Origin: Diabrotica undecimpunctata
Taxonomy: Eukaryota > Arthropoda > Insecta > Coleoptera > Chrysomelidae
Direction of reading: 5' to 3'
Length of the DNA stretch: 64,000 bases
NCBI RefSeq assembly: GCF_040954645.1
Contig: NC_092803.1
Coordinates: forward strand, 60,285,984 to 60,349,983
Positions 8,642-23,050 of the stretch are shown in pieces. The position numbers and the translations under genes are program-made. Within the stretch, counting starts at the first letter, position 1. Every line of letters begins with the position of its first letter. Under the pieces are notes generated by a model that was not told the DNA's origin, did not search any database, and saw nothing but the letters and a program-made list of their open reading frames with translations.

Positions 8642-9360
8642 TGTTTAGCTACTAAAGTAAAATAATCATTGAAATCCTTTGATGTAATCGCACTTGGACA
8701 TTTCTATGATAATTTATAACTTTCCAACTGTCACGAGATATATTTTCTGAATTGGAAAAGACCGTTTTTTCTTTAATAAGATTGTTGATTTGTAGTTCTT
8801 CTTAACCTTTTAATATAAATTGAATCTTTACTATGAGTTCGTAAGTTTTTATCGGAAAATTAATTTCATTTAACTTATCATACATTTCGGTAGTACATTG
8901 AGCTAATTCTGTTGCTGTTTTGAGAGAAACAACTAAAACCCAGTCAACGTTATTTAATGACTATTTTAACATAAGGATGCCATTACTTGTTATATGTCTC
9001 CTGTAGGTATTAGTACTATAACTTTTTTCAGATTTTATTTTTAAGTAAGAAAATTGAGCGGGATAATCATAAATACATAGTCTACAATTCCACAACAAAC
9101 GATCTCACTGCTTATGTTTGTTCAGATGTTATCTAAACAAGTTGCTGATCTAGTTGTGATTCTAGTAAATTCATTAATATTTATGGTTAAGCTAAAAGTA
9201 GATATGTTTAGTTCATTAGAAGCTTTTTTAAAATTAACGTTGAAATCTCCAATTATTATTATTTCTAAAAGATTAGCAGAACACCAAAACAAAAATAACT
9301 TTTTAAATAGGTCTAGAAAATGAAAAAGACAGTAAAGATTCTATTTCACGTACAAATCGT

Positions 9361-9420
9361 CTATGTATCTGTTTATACGTATTTCGCTTTAATAAAGCTC
9401 ATCAGAACAGTTATTCATAG
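9361..9420 (-). ncRNA. Type I hammerhead ribozyme, copy 1
   Basis: Minus-strand order: CTATG, AATAA, CTGTT, core CTGATGA, stem II GCTTT-ATT-AAAGC, core GAAA, then ATACGTA-type stem III, A, AACAG, ATA, CATAG. Stem I has two perfect 5-bp helices (CTATG/CATAG and CTGTT/AACAG) flanking an internal loop, as expected for loop-loop contacts. Stem III is very short and self-complementary (UACGUA), the arrangement known from dimer-acting hammerheads such as newt satellite. The predicted cut follows AUA, before AACAG. All invariant core bases (CUGANGA, GAAA, UH) are present. Activity is inferred, not tested. Confidence 0.88.
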
Positions 9421-9757
9421 GCGTTCTCAACGTGAAAAATAGATCTTTTCTGTCTTTGGGAAGCAACGATAAAATGCTTCGAAACTGACGCAATAGCGAC
9501 ATCTGATATTAAATCCGTAAAATAGTTTCGAAACACAATTCAGATTTCTGCTTTAATCTGAACCTTCTATAAATGCAAGGTATAACAGACGTTGATAAAG
9601 ATGTTAATAGAGACATGGGGAATCTAAAATTTGCATTCCACGACATGTCTCCTCAACTAAGCAGAAATCGTTAGCGAATTGGTTTCTTGTACTCATACAG
9701 AGTAGATCCGAATAAAATGAAAAAGACAGTAAAGATTCCATTTTGCGTACAAATCGT

Positions 9758-9817
9758 CTATGTATCTGTTTATACGTATTTCGCTTTAATAAAGCTCATC
9801 AGAACAGTTATTCATAG
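9758..9817 (-). ncRNA. Type I hammerhead ribozyme, copy 2
   Basis: Second copy of the motif, 397 bp downstream of copy 1 and identical to it in core and helices. Together they would release a ~397-nt unit-length RNA from a minus-strand transcript crossing both sites. Confidence 0.88.
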
Positions 9818-10390
9818 GCGTTCTCAACGTGAAAAATAGATCTTTTCTGTCTTTGGGAAGCAACGATAAAATGGCTTTGAAACGGACGCAATAGCGACAT
9901 CTGATATTAAATCCGTAAAATAGTTTCGAAACACAATTAAGATTTCTGCTTTAATCTGAACCTTCTATAAATGCAAGGTATAACAGACGTTGATAAAGAT
10001 GTTAATAGAGACATGGGGAATCTAAAATTTGTATTCCACGACATGTCTCCTCAACTAAGCAGAAATCGTTAGCGAATTGGTTTCTTGTACTCATACAGAG
10101 TAGATCCGAATAAAATGAAACTATTTGTGTTTCGAAACTATTTTACGGAGGTCTAAAAAAATTTTAAAATTCTCATTTCCGTTTCCATACACAGTTACAC
10201 AATTACTAAAATAGTTCTAATATCTATAATTTCTAATGTACAAAATCCACCCTCATATACACATGATATATCATTTAAACAAACTTGTCGTGTAGAGATT
10301 TTATTATGGCTAAAAATTGTATCACCTCCACGTTCCCTTACATTTTGACAATAGAAAGTTGTCAAAAATACCCTTTTTAATAAATGAATT

Positions 10391-11778: not shown

Positions 11779-11782
11779 CAAT

Positions 11783-12093
11783 TGTTACGATAAATATACT
11801 GGCCTAACTTTTATGACTAATTATTCTGTTTTATTGTAGAAATTTCGGTGGAAGTCTAGATTCAAATTATGGTGAATTCTCCAACTTGATGTTCTCGACT
11901 ATTCCAGTATATCAGGATTTCGTATATAAATACAACATTTTTATATGGAGAGCCAGTTAATACTCAAGACCCGCGCTCGCGAATTTGTACGTACGGATAT
12001 AATAAATTATTGTCAGATAAGTTAATATAAATAAAGAAATAAATTAAATCCGTAAGTGTTATAAATATTGAACCTTTTAATAAATTCACAACA
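11783..12093 (+). repeat. 5' LTR (311 bp)
   Basis: Starts TGTTACGATAAA and ends TTCACAACA. It contains a TATA box, TATATAAA, at 11923-11930 and a polyadenylation-type AATAAA at 12030-12035, so a U3-R-U5 order is plausible. It is identical in length and, by reading, in sequence to 17571-17881. Confidence 0.97.
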
Positions 12094-12112: not shown

Positions 12113-12169
12113 AATACTTAGATAAATTGCGAAAATAAATTACAAGTGAATATAAAATAAATTGTGAAA

Positions 12170-12871
12170 ATGGCTACGATTTATGAGCTGACAGTGACTA
12201 ATTTAAGAAGACATCTTGAAGACAGAGAATTAGCTTCTACCGGAAAAAAGGCTGAGTTAGTCCAACGACTAAAGAACGCTTTGCTAGAAGAAGGACTAGA
12301 TCCAGAGACTTATATATTTGAAGATGCTGTCCTCTCGTCGATTTCGAAAGTTTCTTCTGATGTAGCCAAAGTTTCCGGCGACATCGCATCATTGGAGAAC
12401 AAAGTATCCGGCGACATCGCTTCTTTAGAAAGCAAAGTTTCTAACGAGATTTCTTCTCTGGAAAGCAAAGTTTCTGCTAACATCTCTAAAGTCACTTCTG
12501 AAATATCTGCTCTTGACGATAGAGTGTCTTCGCTAAAAAACCAAGTTGCTGCCGATAAGTTGGCCTTCGAAGAAAAGATTAAAGAGATGGAAAGGAAGAT
12601 GGAAGAAACAGGGACAGCAGAGAGAGGTAACAATCCGATTACAGTGGAGATAAAAGAAGACGAGACGAAATTTAAGTTGGAGACACGGCCGAAATTTGAA
12701 GGAAGTGGAGGTTCTATTCATGTTAAAGTCCCAACTTTCGACGGAAAATCATCATGGAACAACTACATGAAACAGTTCGAATCAGCCGCAAGAGCAAATG
12801 GATGGTCTGAAAAAGAAAAGGCTGTAAACCTGACTATCGCTCTTCGAGGAGATGCCTTAGATGTGCTTTAG
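12170..12871 (+). CDS. gag: Gag, N-terminal part (SAP domain, coiled coil, start of capsid), ends at internal TAG
   Basis: ATG at 12170 is the first good start after the primer site (AAAATGG context). Residues ~5-42 form a SAP domain (LTVTNLRRHLEDRELASTGK, then KAELVQRLK), a helix-turn-helix DNA/RNA-binding fold known from chromatin proteins. Residues ~53-155 are heptad-rich with repeated SLESKVS/DIASLE units, predicted coiled coil. From ~183 a Gag capsid-like stretch starts (IHVKVPTFDG, then WNNYMKQFESAARANGW). The frame stops at TAG 12869-12871, in the middle of the capsid region; the next codons continue capsid in the same frame, so the stop is either a nonsense mutation or a readthrough site. 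An intact Gag would assemble the particle and bind RNA. No CCHC knuckle occurs here or in the continuation. Confidence 0.9.
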   Translation: MATIYELTVTNLRRHLEDRELASTGKKAELVQRLKNALLEEGLDPETYIFEDAVLSSISKVSSDVAKVSGDIASLENKVSGDIASLESKVSNEISSLESKVSANISKVTSEISALDDRVSSLKNQVAADKLAFEEKIKEMERKMEETGTAERGNNPITVEIKEDETKFKLETRPKFEGSGGSIHVKVPTFDGKSSWNNYMKQFESAARANGWSEKEKAVNLTIALRGDALDVL

Positions 12872-12925: not shown

Positions 12926-15900
12926 ATGCGATATGGCCACGAACATTTGGAGCATGTTTATCAGTCACAGCTTAAAAATCGTAGACAGAAGAAAGAGGAG
13001 GCTCTTCAAGAATATGAGGTAGATATTGCCAGATTAGTACGATATGCTTATCCAACAGCTCCCGAAGACATGATGGAAAAATTGGCCGTTCAAACGTTTA
13101 TTGATGGTCTTCGTGATCATGAAATGCAGAGAACACTACGATTAGCTCGTCACAAGACGCTGGTTGATGTCTTATCCGCCGCCCTCGAATACGAGTCAGC
13201 TACGCAGGCCTCTGGCGGGTACAGTAAAGTTAGGACTGTAAAAGAGGAAGGAGATGAAGATAAACTTGACCAGCTCTTTAATTTGATAAAAAGCATGACA
13301 TGCAAGAAAACGAAGACCATAAAATCAAGAAACTCACAATCGGAAAAACCAGAACGAGTCGGCTTTAGGGGAGCAGCTTCGACCCGGAACTTTTCCAAAG
13401 ACCCTCTTATACTAATAGCTTCTTTGAAATGTCGTGAAGATAGTGTATATGTAGATGGAGAAATAAATGGTAAAAGACATACGTTGTTGGTGGATACCGG
13501 AGCGACCGGAACCATTATACGCCCGACAGTTATAAACAGCCGAAAGAAACTGTTACCAACGAGGTTACGACTTCGGACCGCTACAGGTGAAAATGCCAAC
13601 ATTCATGGAGAAATCCAGGTACAATTGGGAATTGGGGCAGAAAAGTTTGTCCATACTGTTATAGTTGCTGACATCGAAGAGGATGTTATATTAGGAATGG
13701 ACGTAATGAATATGCATGGATTCCAATTGGATTTTAAGAATAAGGTAATCAAAGTTGGCAACGAGGAGGTATTTCTCCATCCACATAATGACAACACTGT
13801 GCAAGCAGCCATTACAGAAGATACAGTCGTGCCTGCGAGAAGCGAAACGATCATAGTAGCGCGACTACAGGGAATTGTAGACGAAGGGAGACCTGTTATG
13901 ATGGAGCCTTGGAACCACGACGATGAGGTTGGCCGTGGAATCATAATTGGAAAGGAATTGGTGACTTCGGCTAAAGAAATTCCTGTGAGACTTATCAATG
14001 TCAACGACTACCCAGTGACCATAAAGAAAGAGACAAAAGTAGGAACTTGTGTACCTGTGACATCCATAATCCGTCAGGCGACAACATCTGATAATTCCAA
14101 CGATAAATTCGACCAAATGGTTGCAGTTGCAGGACAGTCTCTAAATCAGATGGAGAAAAGGAAATTAAGGGAATTTCTTCGGCAGTATCGTGATATTTTC
14201 GTACCGAAAGGAGGAAAGACGGGAAGAACTACGGTTGTTAAGCATAAAATTGATACTGGTAATGCTAAGCCAATTCGTCAAACAGCTCGACGATTACCAC
14301 AGGCGAAAAGAGAGGAAGCTGAAACGATTGTTCAGGAAATGAAGAAAGACGGGGTGATAGAACCTTCTACGAGCCCATGGGTCTCTCCGGTGGTCCTGGT
14401 TAAGAAGAAAGACGGAACGACGAGGTTCTGTGTGGATTACCGTTTGCTGAACAACGTTACCAAGAAAGATAGTTATCCTCTGCCTCGGATCGATGACACA
14501 TTGGACACATTGGCTGGAAGTAAATTGTTTTCTACTTTGGATTTGAAGTCTGGATACTGGCAGGTAGAAATGGACCCAGTAGATAAAGAAAAGACAGCCT
14601 TCACCACAGGATCTGGATTGTGGCAATTCAACGTTATGCCATTTGGACTCTGTAATGCTCCTGCGACATTTGAGAGGCTTATGGAAAATGTGTTGAGAGG
14701 GTTATCTTGGAAAACATGCCTGGTTTATTTAGATGACATAATCGTCTTGGGGGAGACATTCGAAGATCATTTGAGGAATTTAGAAAACGTTTTTAATCGA
14801 CTTAAAGCTGCCCAATTAATGCTAAACCCCAAGAAGTGCCAGCTATTTCAAGGTAAAGTCAATTATCTGGGTCATATAGTCAGTAAAGAAGGAGTGGCCG
14901 TGGATAAGGGAAAAATCGATTCCATTAAGGAATGGCCAAAACCAACTGACAAACATCAAGTGAGAAGTTTTCTTGGACTATGTACTTACTACCGGAGGTT
15001 TATTAAGAAGTTTGCAGATATCGCTAAGCCATTAACGCGACTTACAGAGGAATCAAGAGAATACCGCTGGGATATAGACTGCCAAAATGCCTTTGAAACG
15101 TTGAAAAAGCATTTAATAACAGCACCAATTTTGGGGTATCCACTGCCAGAAGGAGAGTTCATCTTAGATACGGATGCAAGTAATGTGGGAATTGGAGGAG
15201 TGCTGTCTCAGATTCAAGGAGGACAGGAACGAGTCCTCGGATATTTTAGTAAAGTTCTTTCAAAACCAGAACGGAATTATTGCGTCACGAGAAGAGAACT
15301 TCTGGCAGTAGTGAAATCAGTAGAGCACTTCTATCAATATCTCTATGGCAGAAAGTTTCTAATCCGAACCGACCATGCCGCCCTTAAGTGGTTGATGCAG
15401 TTTAAGAATCCAGAGGGTCAGATAGCCAGGTGGATCGAACGACTCCAAGAATACGATTTTAAGATTGAGCACCGGGCCGGAGTTAGCCACAGAAACGCTG
15501 ATTCTCTTTCCAGAAGGCCATGCCCAGCAGAGTGTTCCCACTGCAACAAAACGGAATCCAAGGAAGCAGCAGTGCTAAGAACGACGATTGTCAACGACGA
15601 CTGGACGCCTACTAAGATAAGGGAAGAACAAGAGAGAGATCCAGTTATACAGAAAATCCGAAAATGGAAAGAGGAAAACCGTCGACCACCTTGGCAGGAA
15701 ATATCAAACCTATGCTCAGTAGTTAAGACGTATTGGGCCCAGTGGGACTCATTTATCATCGAAGATGGCTTGCTCAAACGAGTCCTGGAAAATGATGACG
15801 GTTCAGAGAAGAGAAGACAGTTGGTGATCCCAAAGAGCAGAATAGCCGAAGTACTTCGTCAGTTACACGACAGTCCATCGGGAGGGCATTTTGGGGTAAA

Positions 15901-17581
15901 GAAAACCCTTCAGCGAATTCGGGAACGGTTTTATTGGATGAACAGTTCCGACGACGTAAAAGACTGGTGTAAGAAATGTACTATTTGTGCTACGAGTAAC
16001 GGGCCTCACCGAAAAAGGAGAGCTCCTATGAGACAATATAATGTTGGAAGCCCGTTTGAAAGAATAGCTTTGGACATCGCTGGGCCATTTCCAGAAAGTG
16101 AAAATGGAGGCAAGTACATGTTGGTAGTAATGGATTACTTTACTAAGTGGGTCGAGATTTACGCACTTCCAGACCAGAAGGCCGCCACCGTTGCAGATAA
16201 GTTGATCCAAGAATATATCAGCCGATTTGGAGTGCCTTTGGAGATCCATAGTGACCAAGGCAGGAACTTCGAAAGCGATCTATTCCAAGGAATATGTGAT
16301 AGACTAGGCATGAAGAAAACAAGAACTACCGCGTATCATCCGCAATCGGATGGTATGGTAGAACGAATGAATAGGACAGTTGGCAAGTATTTGACAAAGA
16401 TGGTGTCCGATCATCAGCGAGACTGGGACCAATACCTTCCGTTCTTCACAATGGCCTACAGATCTGCTGTTAACGAATCAACAGGCCAGACACCAGCCAA
16501 AGTCCTATTCGGACGCGAAATGCGACTACCTTGTGATCTCGAGTTTGGATGTAAACCTGGAGAAGATGTAGCAGGTGAAGATTATGTGATCGAATTACGA
16601 AGAAGAATGGACGATGTACATGAGTTGGTCCGTTCCCACCTTCAGATCGCTAGCGACAGAATGAAGAAACGGTACGATACACAAGCCGAAAAGGGTTGCT
16701 TTAAGAAGAACGACAAAGTATGGCTGTATAATCCCAAGAAGCGAAAAGGTTGTTCTCCCAAATTGCAGCAGTTTTGGGAAGGTCCATACCTCATTATGGA
16801 GAAGATCAACGATGTCATCTACCGAATAAGCAAGATTCCGAGGGGAAAGCCGATGATAGTACACCATAACCGGTTGGCATCTTTCGAAGGTGACCACGAC
16901 GTAGATGAAGAAGTGGAAGTAAACCAAGTCCAAGATGTGTCTGACCTCACGTTTGAGGAATTCATGGGTGCCTATGGAGGTACCGGTAAAGCAAGACATG
17001 GTGTTACCACTGAAGAAAAGCAAGATCTACTCGCGCTCCCCGATGACTACTCGCTGGCCCTTACCATCCCGGCCAGTATCAAAGATGCACCAGGGTTGGC
17101 ATCCGTCTTTCGAAGGAAGTTTGGTCGAGTTGCAGAACTTCAATGCCAAGTGCCAGCTCCCGGTAAAACCTTGAAACTCCAAGATGCATCACGTTACCTT
17201 TTCTACCTGGTAACAAAAGACACTGCCCGTGACCAACCTACCTACCGAGATGTATGGGAAGCCTTACTTCAATTGAGAGAGCACGTACTAGAGTCCGACG
17301 TGCAAAAGTTAGCCATGCCAAAGTTGGAGTGCCGCCAATTAGATTGGAGGGTTATCCGAAATATGGTGGAGGAGATCTTCCAAGACACCGAAGTCCAGGT
17401 GTTAGTCTGTTGCAATCCGCTAAGTACCTTGTGCGGAGAGAAAACCGTCCCTTGTCATTTTTATACAACTGGAAGTTGTAAAAGAGGGTCCAGTTGCCGA
17501 TACCAGCATACAGTTCCGGTTCCAGTCCCGACAAGGTTCCAGGAGGAACCATCTTTTAAGAGGGGGGCAATGTTACGATAA
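12926..17581 (+). CDS. pol: Gag C-terminus fused to Pol: protease, RT, RNase H, integrase, macro-like domain, CCCH finger
   Basis: A 1551-codon frame, in phase with gag; the open frame starts right after the TAG, first ATG at 12926. Residues ~1-100 finish the capsid. Aspartic protease: DTGAT at 190-194. RT with active site YLDD at 601-604; RNase H with DTDAS at 748-752; integrase zinc region H981/H988 and C1015/C1018; catalytic D1050, D1110 and E1146 (D-x35-E spacing); a GPY/F module (FWEGPYLI) near 1288. Past integrase, residues ~1362-1497 resemble the TARG1/OARD1-type macro domain (SVFRRKFG, SRYLFYLVTK, QPTY, AMPKLEC), with lysine K1431 in the LVTK position, but the glycine-rich loop and the following catalytic aspartate of active TARG1 are not evident. 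Residues 1510-1528 are a CCCH finger, C-x7-C-x5-C-x3-H. The stop codon lies 11 bp inside the 3' LTR, so the polypurine tract is translated. Domain calls for the extension are from memory of family motifs. Confidence 0.93.
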   Translation: MRYGHEHLEHVYQSQLKNRRQKKEEALQEYEVDIARLVRYAYPTAPEDMMEKLAVQTFIDGLRDHEMQRTLRLARHKTLVDVLSAALEYESATQASGGYSKVRTVKEEGDEDKLDQLFNLIKSMTCKKTKTIKSRNSQSEKPERVGFRGAASTRNFSKDPLILIASLKCREDSVYVDGEINGKRHTLLVDTGATGTIIRPTVINSRKKLLPTRLRLRTATGENANIHGEIQVQLGIGAEKFVHTVIVADIEEDVILGMDVMNMHGFQLDFKNKVIKVGNEEVFLHPHNDNTVQAAITEDTVVPARSETIIVARLQGIVDEGRPVMMEPWNHDDEVGRGIIIGKELVTSAKEIPVRLINVNDYPVTIKKETKVGTCVPVTSIIRQATTSDNSNDKFDQMVAVAGQSLNQMEKRKLREFLRQYRDIFVPKGGKTGRTTVVKHKIDTGNAKPIRQTARRLPQAKREEAETIVQEMKKDGVIEPSTSPWVSPVVLVKKKDGTTRFCVDYRLLNNVTKKDSYPLPRIDDTLDTLAGSKLFSTLDLKSGYWQVEMDPVDKEKTAFTTGSGLWQFNVMPFGLCNAPATFERLMENVLRGLSWKTCLVYLDDIIVLGETFEDHLRNLENVFNRLKAAQLMLNPKKCQLFQGKVNYLGHIVSKEGVAVDKGKIDSIKEWPKPTDKHQVRSFLGLCTYYRRFIKKFADIAKPLTRLTEESREYRWDIDCQNAFETLKKHLITAPILGYPLPEGEFILDTDASNVGIGGVLSQIQGGQERVLGYFSKVLSKPERNYCVTRRELLAVVKSVEHFYQYLYGRKFLIRTDHAALKWLMQFKNPEGQIARWIERLQEYDFKIEHRAGVSHRNADSLSRRPCPAECSHCNKTESKEAAVLRTTIVNDDWTPTKIREEQERDPVIQKIRKWKEENRRPPWQEISNLCSVVKTYWAQWDSFIIEDGLLKRVLENDDGSEKRRQLVIPKSRIAEVLRQLHDSPSGGHFGVKKTLQRIRERFYWMNSSDDVKDWCKKCTICATSNGPHRKRRAPMRQYNVGSPFERIALDIAGPFPESENGGKYMLVVMDYFTKWVEIYALPDQKAATVADKLIQEYISRFGVPLEIHSDQGRNFESDLFQGICDRLGMKKTRTTAYHPQSDGMVERMNRTVGKYLTKMVSDHQRDWDQYLPFFTMAYRSAVNESTGQTPAKVLFGREMRLPCDLEFGCKPGEDVAGEDYVIELRRRMDDVHELVRSHLQIASDRMKKRYDTQAEKGCFKKNDKVWLYNPKKRKGCSPKLQQFWEGPYLIMEKINDVIYRISKIPRGKPMIVHHNRLASFEGDHDVDEEVEVNQVQDVSDLTFEEFMGAYGGTGKARHGVTTEEKQDLLALPDDYSLALTIPASIKDAPGLASVFRRKFGRVAELQCQVPAPGKTLKLQDASRYLFYLVTKDTARDQPTYRDVWEALLQLREHVLESDVQKLAMPKLECRQLDWRVIRNMVEEIFQDTEVQVLVCCNPLSTLCGEKTVPCHFYTTGSCKRGSSCRYQHTVPVPVPTRFQEEPSFKRGAMLR
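17557..17570 (+). other. Polypurine tract
   Basis: AAGAGGGGGGCAA lies directly before the 3' LTR and would prime plus-strand DNA synthesis. It is also coding, near the last codons of Pol. Confidence 0.85.
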
Positions 17582-17881
17582 ATATACTGGCCTAACTTTT
17601 ATGACTAATTATTCTGTTTTATTGTAGAAATTTCGGTGGAAGTCTAGATTCAAATTATGGTGAATTCTCCAACTTGATGTTCTCGACTATTCCAGTATAT
17701 CAGGATTTCGTATATAAATACAACATTTTTATATGGAGAGCCAGTTAATACTCAAGACCCGCGCTCGCGAATTTGTACGTACGGATATAATAAATTATTG
17801 TCAGATAAGTTAATATAAATAAAGAAATAAATTAAATCCGTAAGTGTTATAAATATTGAACCTTTTAATAAATTCACAACA
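17571..17881 (+). repeat. 3' LTR (311 bp)
   Basis: Copy of 11783-12093 with no difference found. Followed by the CAAT target duplication. Confidence 0.97.
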
Positions 17882-17885
17882 CAAT

Positions 17886-19790: not shown

Positions 19791-20640
19791 ATTCAATCTT
19801 CGCTTATCCACTGCTGGACATAGATCTCCCTCATAATTTTCCATCTATTTCGATCTTGTGCCTCTTGCATCCAATTCCTATGACAACGTTTTAGATCGTC
19901 AGTCCAACGTGTTGGTGGACGACCTCTGCTTCGGTAGGCATCATCTCTTGGTCTCCATTCCAGTATCCGCTTTGTCCATCTATTATCTGTCATTCGAGCT
20001 ACGTGACCTGCCCAGTTCCATTTCAGTGTTGCTACTCTCTCTACTGCATCAGCCACTCCTGTTCTTTGTCGTAGCTGGCGATTTGGGATCTTGTCTCGTA
20101 GTGAAACGCCCAACATAGCACGCTCCATCGCCCTTTGACACACACGGATCTTTTGAACTGTTCTCCTTGTCATGGTCAACGTTTCGGCACCGTAAGTTAA
20201 CACTGGCAAAACACACTGATTAAACGTTTTTCTTTTAAGGCATATTGGTATATCAGACGATTTGAAAATATGGTTCAGCTTGCCGAAGGCTGCCCAAGTC
20301 AGTCTTATACGACGGAGAAGCTCAACGGTTTGGTTATCTTTTCCTATGCGAATCTCATGACCTAGGTATTTATAGGCCATTACCTGGTCTATGGATCTTG
20401 TTCCTACGCATATATCTTCGCTGACTACAAGATTTGTCATCATCTGGGTTTTAGATATATTTATTTTCAATCCCCCTTCTAGCGAGGAAAGGTAGAGCTG
20501 ATTTAAAAGTTCTTTGGCCTCATCTATCCTATCAGCTATTAGTACAATATCATCTGCAAACCTTAGATGGCTAAGCTTTTCTCCGTTTATGTTTATGCCC
20601 TTGTCGGTCAGTTTTATTGTCAGGCCATGGAGTGGGGTGT
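19791..20640 (-). mobile_element. Non-LTR retrotransposon 3' part (GRPPT family)
   Basis: Minus-strand frame of 225 codons (19793-20470), plus upstream coding to ~20640. It includes the RT active-site box LRFADDIVLIADRIDEA (about 20560), YKYLGHEIRI, VLPVLTYGAETLT, the WAGHVARM block, RGRPPTRWTDDLKRCHRNW and AQDRNRW...YVQQW at the end. The stop at 19793 is followed by GATGATT, the short tail. A second 3' end of this family is at 63241-63530. Joined head to head with its own 5' region at 20641 (next entry). Confidence 0.88.
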
Positions 20641-21945: not shown

Positions 21946-23050
21946 ATCTAAAAAAATATTTGTGCTTCGTCGACTACTCAAAAGCGTTCGATAATGTAAA
22001 GTGGCATAAAATGTGGGGAATACTGAGAGAAATGGGTACCCCCGAACATCTAATATACCTCCTGAAACAACTGTATATCAACAACAAAGCAAACGTAAGG
22101 GTAAACAACATATACTCCGATAATTTTAAACTAAAAACCGGTGTTCGTCAAGGATGTATTATCTCTCCCACGTTATTTAATATATATATATATATAGCGA
22201 ATATAGCAAACACATCATGCGCATTGTATTCGACGGATGGCAAAAAGGAATACCAGTCGGAGGCCAAAATATCAGTAATCTCCGCTATGCTAACGACACT
22301 TTAGTACTAGCATCATCAACAAATGACCTTAAATACATTATCAATAGACTAATACTATTACTCGTGAATATGGACTTAAAATTAATATACAGGTAATGAT
22401 AATCGATCGAATTAGAAATAACCAGCCGAAAATACGAAACTTAGCGGGGTTTGAAGTGGTAAGCCGTTTCAATTACTTAGCTTCTGTTATTACAAACAAT
22501 GATGGATGCGAATAAGATATACGTCCACGCCTTACAAATCTGGAAAGATACGGACATAACCAGGAACACGAAATTGCGCCTAGTACGGACGCTTATCTTT
22601 CCTATTGCTACCTATGCGTCAGAAACTTAGACCAATAAAAAGTCCTACTCACGACGTATAATGCCCTTTGAAATGTGGGTATATCGTAGAATGATGCACA
22701 TACGCTGGACAGCACATCGAACAAATATCTCAATATTGACAGAACTCGACATCAATACTAGGCTTACCATAATCATCAACCAAAATATATTGAGGTACTT
22801 TGGACACATTACCAGACAAATGGAAGGCATGAAGGGGTAGGTGGTTGAAGGCAAGGTAGATGGTAAAAGAACCCGAGGAAGATCGGCACTCCGATGGTCA
22901 GACCAAATAAAGTACACTACCGGTTACTCTCTGTCTCAGGCAGCACACCGCGCCCGGGAGAGAGAAGAATGGATAGCAAACATTCGTCAAATACCATAAC
23001 GTCACCACATCCTTATGAAGGATAAAGGATAGAGGAGGAGGAGCATCTGT
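21946..23050 (+). mobile_element. Non-LTR RT relic, frameshifted
   Basis: RT palm starts with CFVDYSKAFDNVKWHKMW, then VRQGCIISPTLFNIY (to ~22190). After a frameshift the active-site box is LRYANDT (about 22285), so the second catalytic Asp is replaced. Further degraded frames carry the C-terminal GHI..., GKVDGKR and ARERE-type block to ~22990, and the copy ends with GGATAGAGGAGGAGGAGC. A (GAGGAG) tail-like end suggests a lineage related to, but distinct from, the GAA-tail family. Confidence 0.75.

Follow-up and report, generated by a model that had tools for sequence, protein, structure and literature searches.

A TARG1-type macro domain and a CCCH zinc finger behind the integrase of a Ty3/gypsy retrotransposon in Diabrotica undecimpunctata

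The Pol protein of a Ty3/gypsy retrotransposon in the beetle Diabrotica undecimpunctata continues beyond the integrase into a macro domain homologous to TARG1/OARD1, followed by a CCCH zinc finger. The domain has a predicted macro fold, sits in the same position in many copies, groups in trees with the domains of other elements, has lost part of the catalytic dyad and shows a deficit of amino-acid changes. One means by which Ty3/gypsy elements select insertion sites is an accessory domain placed after the integrase, the known example being the chromodomain; the usual task of the macro fold is to read or remove ADP-ribose tags. With a TARG1-type macro domain in this position, retrotransposons would be linked to ADP-ribose signalling.

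Architecture of the element

The window, by which we mean the whole analysed stretch of 64,000 nucleotides, holds an element that is a Ty3/gypsy LTR retrotransposon by its identical LTRs, its CAAT target-site duplication and the order protease, reverse transcriptase, RNase H and integrase (Pfam). A 4-nt target-site duplication was found in 8 of 8 further copies checked, being ambiguous in two that lie within AT-rich repeats. The features of the window copy are as follows.

11779..11782 (+), target-site duplication CAAT, 5' copy
11783..12093 (+), 5' LTR, 311 nt, TG...CA, 0 of 311 differences from the 3' LTR
12164..12871 (+), N-terminal part of Gag; start approximate, in-frame TAG at 12869-12871 breaks Gag in the window copy
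12188..12283 (+), SAP domain at the Gag N-terminus (Pfam SAP, E 5.8e-7, 29.4 bits against a cut-off of 23.9)
12926-17581 (+), Pol frame, with protease, reverse transcriptase, RNase H, integrase and GPY/F-type module up to residue 1318
13451..13711 (+), aspartic protease (Pfam gag-asp_proteas, E 6.1e-11)
14399..14881 (+), reverse transcriptase (Pfam RVT_1, E 1.8e-38)
15146..15454 (+), RNase H (Pfam RT_RNaseH, E 2.3e-34)
15827..16342 (+), integrase zinc domain and catalytic core (Pfam Integrase_H2C2 and rve)
16781..16879 (+), GPY/F-type integrase C-terminal module (Pfam Integrase_p58_C, E 1.1e-12)
16880..17008 (+), linker; its stretch TFEEFMGAYGGTGKARHGVT is partly common to related tails (alignment)
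17009..17416 (+), TARG1/OARD1-type macro domain, Pol residues 1362-1497 (sequence and fold matches)
17216..17218 (+), Lys1431, equivalent of the TARG1 catalytic Lys84 (alignment)
17318..17347 (+), shortened catalytic loop PKLECRQLDW; TARG1 counterpart PRIGCGLDRLQW, Asp125 equivalent missing
17453..17509 (+), CCCH zinc finger C-x7-C-x5-C-x3-H, Pol residues 1510-1528 (Pfam zf-CCCH, 29.0 bits against 20.5; CPSF4 chains, E 1.9e-6)
17558..17570 (+), polypurine tract AAGAGGGGGGCAA, coding, within the Pol frame
17571..17881 (+), 3' LTR, containing the Pol stop at 17579-17581
17882..17885 (+), target-site duplication CAAT, 3' copy

From residue 1319 on, the tail runs from the linker through the macro domain (about 1362-1497) and a short variable stretch to the finger (1510-1528). 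The Pol stop lies inside the 3' LTR and therefore leaves no space for env downstream of pol; no env ORF was found between pol and the 3' LTR of the window copy, which is not an errantivirus or an endogenous retrovirus with env. Among the 21 Pfam families matching Pol at E<=1 there was no chromodomain, a search that a degenerate one could escape.

A SAP domain is unusual in a gypsy Gag. Two Gag types share the macro-CCCH Pol tail (window about 13310-13345; copies L051-L058 and L071-L082). Of one type 8 copies were fetched, and all contain DNA for a CCHC knuckle; it reads CWNCGEIGHVRSSC in the three that were translated, where Gag stops after the knuckle and Pol then follows in another frame. 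From the same point onward the knuckle stretch is absent in the window and in all 12 copies fetched for the other type, and the Gag-Pol junction of the window continues in one frame. Open frames of at least 1780 codons were seen in 56 of 150 scored copies, and of 1422 codons in 36 of 150. Replacement of an absent Gag knuckle by the CCCH finger throughout the family is ruled out by the knuckle DNA in all eight fetched copies of the other subfamily; such a substitution may at most apply to the knuckle-less subfamily. Elsewhere in the window lie a tandem pair of ~398-nt units that are 98% alike (9317-10120) and two ORF pieces which by eye resemble non-LTR reverse transcriptase elements (19793-20470 on the minus strand and 21960-22304 on the plus strand).

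Identity of the macro domain

Human TARG1 matches the macro domain of the window at E 3.8e-22 with no profile needed, and DarG matches it at E 5.8e-5 with a six-row profile. A Pfam search gave no Macro match in the window Pol, and the DarG equivalog cut-off (NCBIfam) was not reached, with 29.8 against 250 bits; the CCCH finger passes the cut-off of its family (Pfam zf-CCCH). Two AlphaFold models both showed a macro fold with TARG1 as the top structural match. Model 1 was built on a seven-row alignment that includes two TARG1 relatives (P0006 and P0007) and had pLDDT block means of ~48-87 over the domain. Model 2, built on 47 rows, reached 84-98 and is not independent of homology, because TARG1 relatives sit in its alignment; its finger region was of low confidence (blocks 50-63). 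The window domain is homologous to TARG1/OARD1 (ALC1-like), with a macro fold nearest to that of TARG1. The best viral structural match to the model was Kadipiro virus VP8 (BFVD A0A8E0KJF2, 34% identity).

An earlier note, made from the letters alone, had read a macro domain and a CCCH finger after the integrase of a gypsy Pol, had taken the former for a captured TARG1/OARD1-type module and had proposed an AlphaFold comparison with macro structures. The pair is borne out by homology, Pfam and the predicted fold, and capture by the element is supported by sequence, fold and the trees described below; the comparison returned the macro fold and TARG1 from both models.

Copies of the family and selection on the tail

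A search of the 1.74-Gb genome with the tail protein gave 5923 candidates, of which 150 were scored. Identity over the tail was 97-100% in every one of these (100% for the window itself), and two had an internal stop. Since this sample was ranked by the tail itself, a second one was drawn with a DNA query (window 15000-15600); 40 of 1578 candidates were scored and 20 of the 40 fetched. The tail was free of gaps and stops in 19 of these 20 copies, and the remaining one has gaps totalling 2 bases. A single-copy accident is ruled out by the 150 matching places and the 19 intact tails, and the suggestion that the extension might be confined to this copy as captured host sequence fails against many siblings across the genome. 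Gypsy-type sequence in D. undecimpunctata is put at 0.19 Gb (PMC8982398). No tRNA gene was found at any of 30 copy loci, each spanning 3.6 kb, in a search run in a bacterial setting.

Codon changes were counted on the 20 copies with the window as 21st row; these are simple site counts on related copies, and the p values are rough. Shared changes (synonymous and nonsynonymous) numbered 9 and 5 in the macro core (omega 0.16, p 0.001), and 33 and 7 in the integrase (omega 0.06). The linker ahead of the macro domain had 1 and 1, the finger 1 and 0 and the last stretch 2 and 2. The eight residues that follow the macro domain had 1 and 4 (four of five nonsynonymous in 1498-1505). Singletons in the macro core were 5 and 6 (omega 0.35). 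Judged by shared changes, the macro core thus looks constrained, less so than the integrase, on small numbers. An earlier sample, superseded for the main claim, took copies in order of their tail protein score, a choice biased towards sequences with few amino-acid changes; it had given a pairwise pN/pS of 0.44 for residues 1362-1503 and 0.05 for the finger. The former exceeds the later shared-change values partly because residues 1498-1503 were included; five of the seven shared nonsynonymous changes of 1362-1503 sit at 1499-1502, beyond the macro domain. The window and protein P0001 are 66% identical in the macro domain and 92% in the reverse transcriptase, and constraint on the macro domain is weaker than on the enzymes of the element.

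A second family and relatives in other insects

With P0010 as query, 150 of 5660 candidates in the same genome were scored, at 47-49% identity, and 14 of the 150 were fetched; these copies were ranked by their similarity to P0010, which introduces some bias, though less than ranking by tail score. Macro domain and finger were readable in all 14 copies of this second family. Where the piece reaches far enough, NRLAPY fits the end of the GPY/F region, and copy L103 ends in polypurine-coded KRGA. Shared changes in the macro core were 13 and 7 (omega 0.15) and singletons 22 and 33 (all changes, omega 0.33, p 2e-6). The finger had 5 and 1 shared changes and 3 and 6 singletons, and the eight-residue stretch behind the macro domain had 1 and 4 shared changes and 0 and 10 singletons. 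The dN/dS check on siblings that had been proposed gives omega ~0.15 for the macro core on shared changes in both families, with rough p values, and searches for siblings in this genome and among proteins recovered relatives in other insects as well as this second family.

When a protein search with the whole Pol was limited to residues 1340-1551, one protein was found, P0001. With the macro alignment as query, 509 proteins were matched; the best 120 of them were considered and 15 examined in full. A motif scan of 123 proteins found the CCCH pattern in four (P0001, P0008, P0010 and P0018). P0008 has the finger and an integrase C-terminal match under the cut-off (E 0.0011), and P0010 and P0018 (the latter from the leaf beetle Gonioctena) have linker, finger and a polypurine-coded end. 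P0009, from the firefly Pyrocoelia, has a GPY/F-like start, a linker and the end EGAML, with no recognisable finger. With 24.1 bits, P0010 exceeds the cut-off of 22 for Pfam Macro. P0019, from Nilaparvata, was grouped with the elements by likeness alone, without flanking evidence. IMG/VR and prokaryote genomes yielded no confirmed relatives.

In trees with the catalytic loop removed, the element rows fell on one side of a branch, both with 9 of 92 rows (100/95) and with 14 of 97 rows (100/99). The trees left out P0004, P0005, P0007 and most of P0086-P0123, and the 97-row tree took five of the 14 second-family copies; the branching order inside the element group was poorly supported. Placing the aphid protein P0063 as sister of this group is weakly supported (99/68 in the 92-row tree, and a long branch in the 97-row tree). 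Pfam Macro matched the genome five times, in four host-gene exons and one second-family copy; no host TARG1-type gene appeared in this search, which a gene split by introns could escape. Three of the four exon matches were read and by eye look MacroD-type or GDAP2-like (C3:108401758-108410574, C2:157827204-157827359).

Three public Diabrotica gene models named 'ADP-ribose glycohydrolase OARD1-like' (P0002, P0003 and P0004) look like pieces of the retrotransposons described here, P0002 and P0004 without the Asp loop; a beetle gene model labelled 'OARD1-like' may thus derive from a retrotransposon. The D. virgifera model 'tachykinin-like peptides receptor 86C' (P0005) has an element macro piece near its start, which points to a chimeric model or to exonisation of the element.

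State of the catalytic site

Residues are numbered here after the PDB sequence of TARG1, with Lys84 and residue 125 in what we take to be their usual numbering. By alignment to that sequence, Lys84 is kept in the window Pol as Lys1431, and the loop PKLECRQLDW is two residues shorter than PRIGCGLDRLQW and has no Asp. The same shortened loop is found in P0001, P0002, P0004 and P0008, and P0003 stops before it. In the window a Gly of the catalytic loop is changed to Glu and the first glycine loop is also changed; with both pocket glycine loops altered, ADP-ribose binding may be weakened or lost. The earlier note had held the catalytic Asp to be lost and binding perhaps kept: the loss stands, as a trait of the family and not a defect of the window copy, and the retained binding is made doubtful by the changes in both glycine loops. 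Because the acid at 125 is absent, the window domain is an ALC1-like macro domain and not a TARG1-type dyad enzyme.

Conservation was counted over 36 columns conserved at >=90% in 37 host-type TARG1 rows. The window keeps 22 of these, P0001 24, P0002 21 and P0008 22; the partial sequences P0003 and P0004 keep 18 and 16. P0009 keeps 34, P0010 33, P0018 30 and P0019 28, and in these four both Lys and Asp are kept. In the second family Lys84 is replaced by Arg in 14 of 14 copies, and position 125 is Asp in 11 and Glu in three (L103, L108 and L114). L117, a further second-family copy (Pfam Macro, under cut-off), has Thr and Tyr at the two positions, with WEGPY...HINRLGPY in the macro frame and then an in-frame stop. 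That the dyad was lost separately in the two families is concluded from the different residues lost, rather than from the tree.

The catalytic residues of TARG1 are Lys84 and residue 125. When residue 125 is mutated a covalent intermediate results, and in DarG the Lys alone is retained (PMC7050489, PMC8501950); residue 125 is given as Glu in the review PMC7050489 and is Asp in the PDB sequence. Since residue-125 mutants trap the intermediate and DarG has the Lys only, the window-family domain could in principle, by analogy, react with ADP-ribose without release or behave like DarG.

Possible role of the domain

We propose that a TARG1-type macro domain was captured by an insect Ty3/gypsy lineage, in the simplest case by a single event, and has been kept with a CCCH finger at the integrase C-terminus. 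Where Lys and Asp survive, the domain would remove ADP-ribose near the integration complex, from PARP-modified proteins or DNA ends. In Diabrotica, each of the two families has lost a different half of the dyad and keeps the fold, which makes a non-hydrolytic binding module the most likely form of the domain there; on our reading of the sequences, the role common to both families would be that of a module no longer needing hydrolysis. Such a module might tether integrase or cDNA to ADP-ribosylated chromatin, to a PARP at a DNA break or to a host protein, and the finger might contact RNA or DNA. We give a tethering or binding role of some kind slightly less than an even chance, and each specific ligand is less likely. 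The narrower proposal, that an eraser became a reader in two families by opposite dyad losses and that the reader steers high-copy integration to PARP-marked chromatin or breaks, is speculative and on the unlikely side; if true, it would be an ADP-ribose counterpart of chromodomain-guided integration. The intact version and the two differently broken ones form a natural experiment on erasers and readers.

Alternatively, the Diabrotica macro domain could be a ligand-free folded spacer or a decaying passenger, with the finger as the working part. This would fit the scarcity of shared amino-acid changes in the finger (none beside one synonymous change in the window family, one beside five in the second), its pairwise pN/pS of 0.05 against 0.44 for 1362-1503 in the sample picked by tail protein score, and the loss of one catalytic residue per family. 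However, the macro core has omega ~0.15 on shared changes in both families, and much of the amino-acid change in 1362-1503 lies at 1499-1502, after the domain; we regard this explanation as unlikely. A domain still active through its Lys, in the manner of DarG, might clear ADP-ribose from cDNA ends or bases, which is quite unlikely given the shortened Asp loop and the loop Gly changed to Glu. The second family moreover has Arg for Lys in all 14 copies, so that the two families do not share a need for Lys-only activity.

The domain might also act as a decoy that binds ADP-ribose made by host PARPs and shields the element, in the way proposed for viral macro domains. Macro folds are indeed present in many proteins of the viral library, VP8 being the best at 34% identity, but the conserved pocket columns are partly lost and insects have few PARPs compared with vertebrates, and we hold a decoy to be distinctly improbable. 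A merely accidental likeness, or the uptake of host sequence by a single copy, finds support in the absent Pfam Macro match only, and its probability is negligible in view of the homology (E 3.8e-22), the 150 of 150 scored places at 97-100% (window included), the 19 of 20 intact tails and the relatives in other insects.

Comparison with known systems

The earlier note knew of no described Ty3/gypsy family with this pair, and we likewise found no report of a macro domain-CCCH fusion in a Ty3/gypsy integrase in the literature searched, which left most subscription journals and bioRxiv outside. Fish epsilon-like endogenous retroviruses with macro-domain ORFs have been described (Basta et al. 2009, cited in PMC4977317); these are also retroelements with a macro domain, but there, as far as the citing source tells, it is an additional ORF in vertebrate retroviruses and not an integrase fusion. 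Macro folds in genetic parasites are also known from viruses, as in alphavirus nsP3 and Kadipiro virus VP8.

With TARG1/OARD1 the window domain has in common fold, sequence, length and the position of the catalytic Lys, whereas it is fused to integrase, its Asp125 loop is shortened and several conserved columns are changed. DarG shares the ALC1-like fold and the Lys without an acidic partner; it differs as a bacterial antitoxin acting on thymidine-ADP-ribose, and its match to the window is distant and far under the family cut-off. The placement of the domain is that of chromoviruses and Ty3, where an accessory domain likewise follows the integrase C-terminal domain. A chromodomain at the C-terminus of integrase is characteristic of chromoviruses (PMC3605345). 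The Ty3 integrase has a vestigial chromodomain at the equivalent position, whose contacts with TFIIIB and target DNA do not involve histones, and this shows that integration can still be directed by a reader domain that has degenerated (PMC8632968). In contrast to these integrases, the window element has a macro fold in this position, for which a role in targeting may be proposed by analogy.
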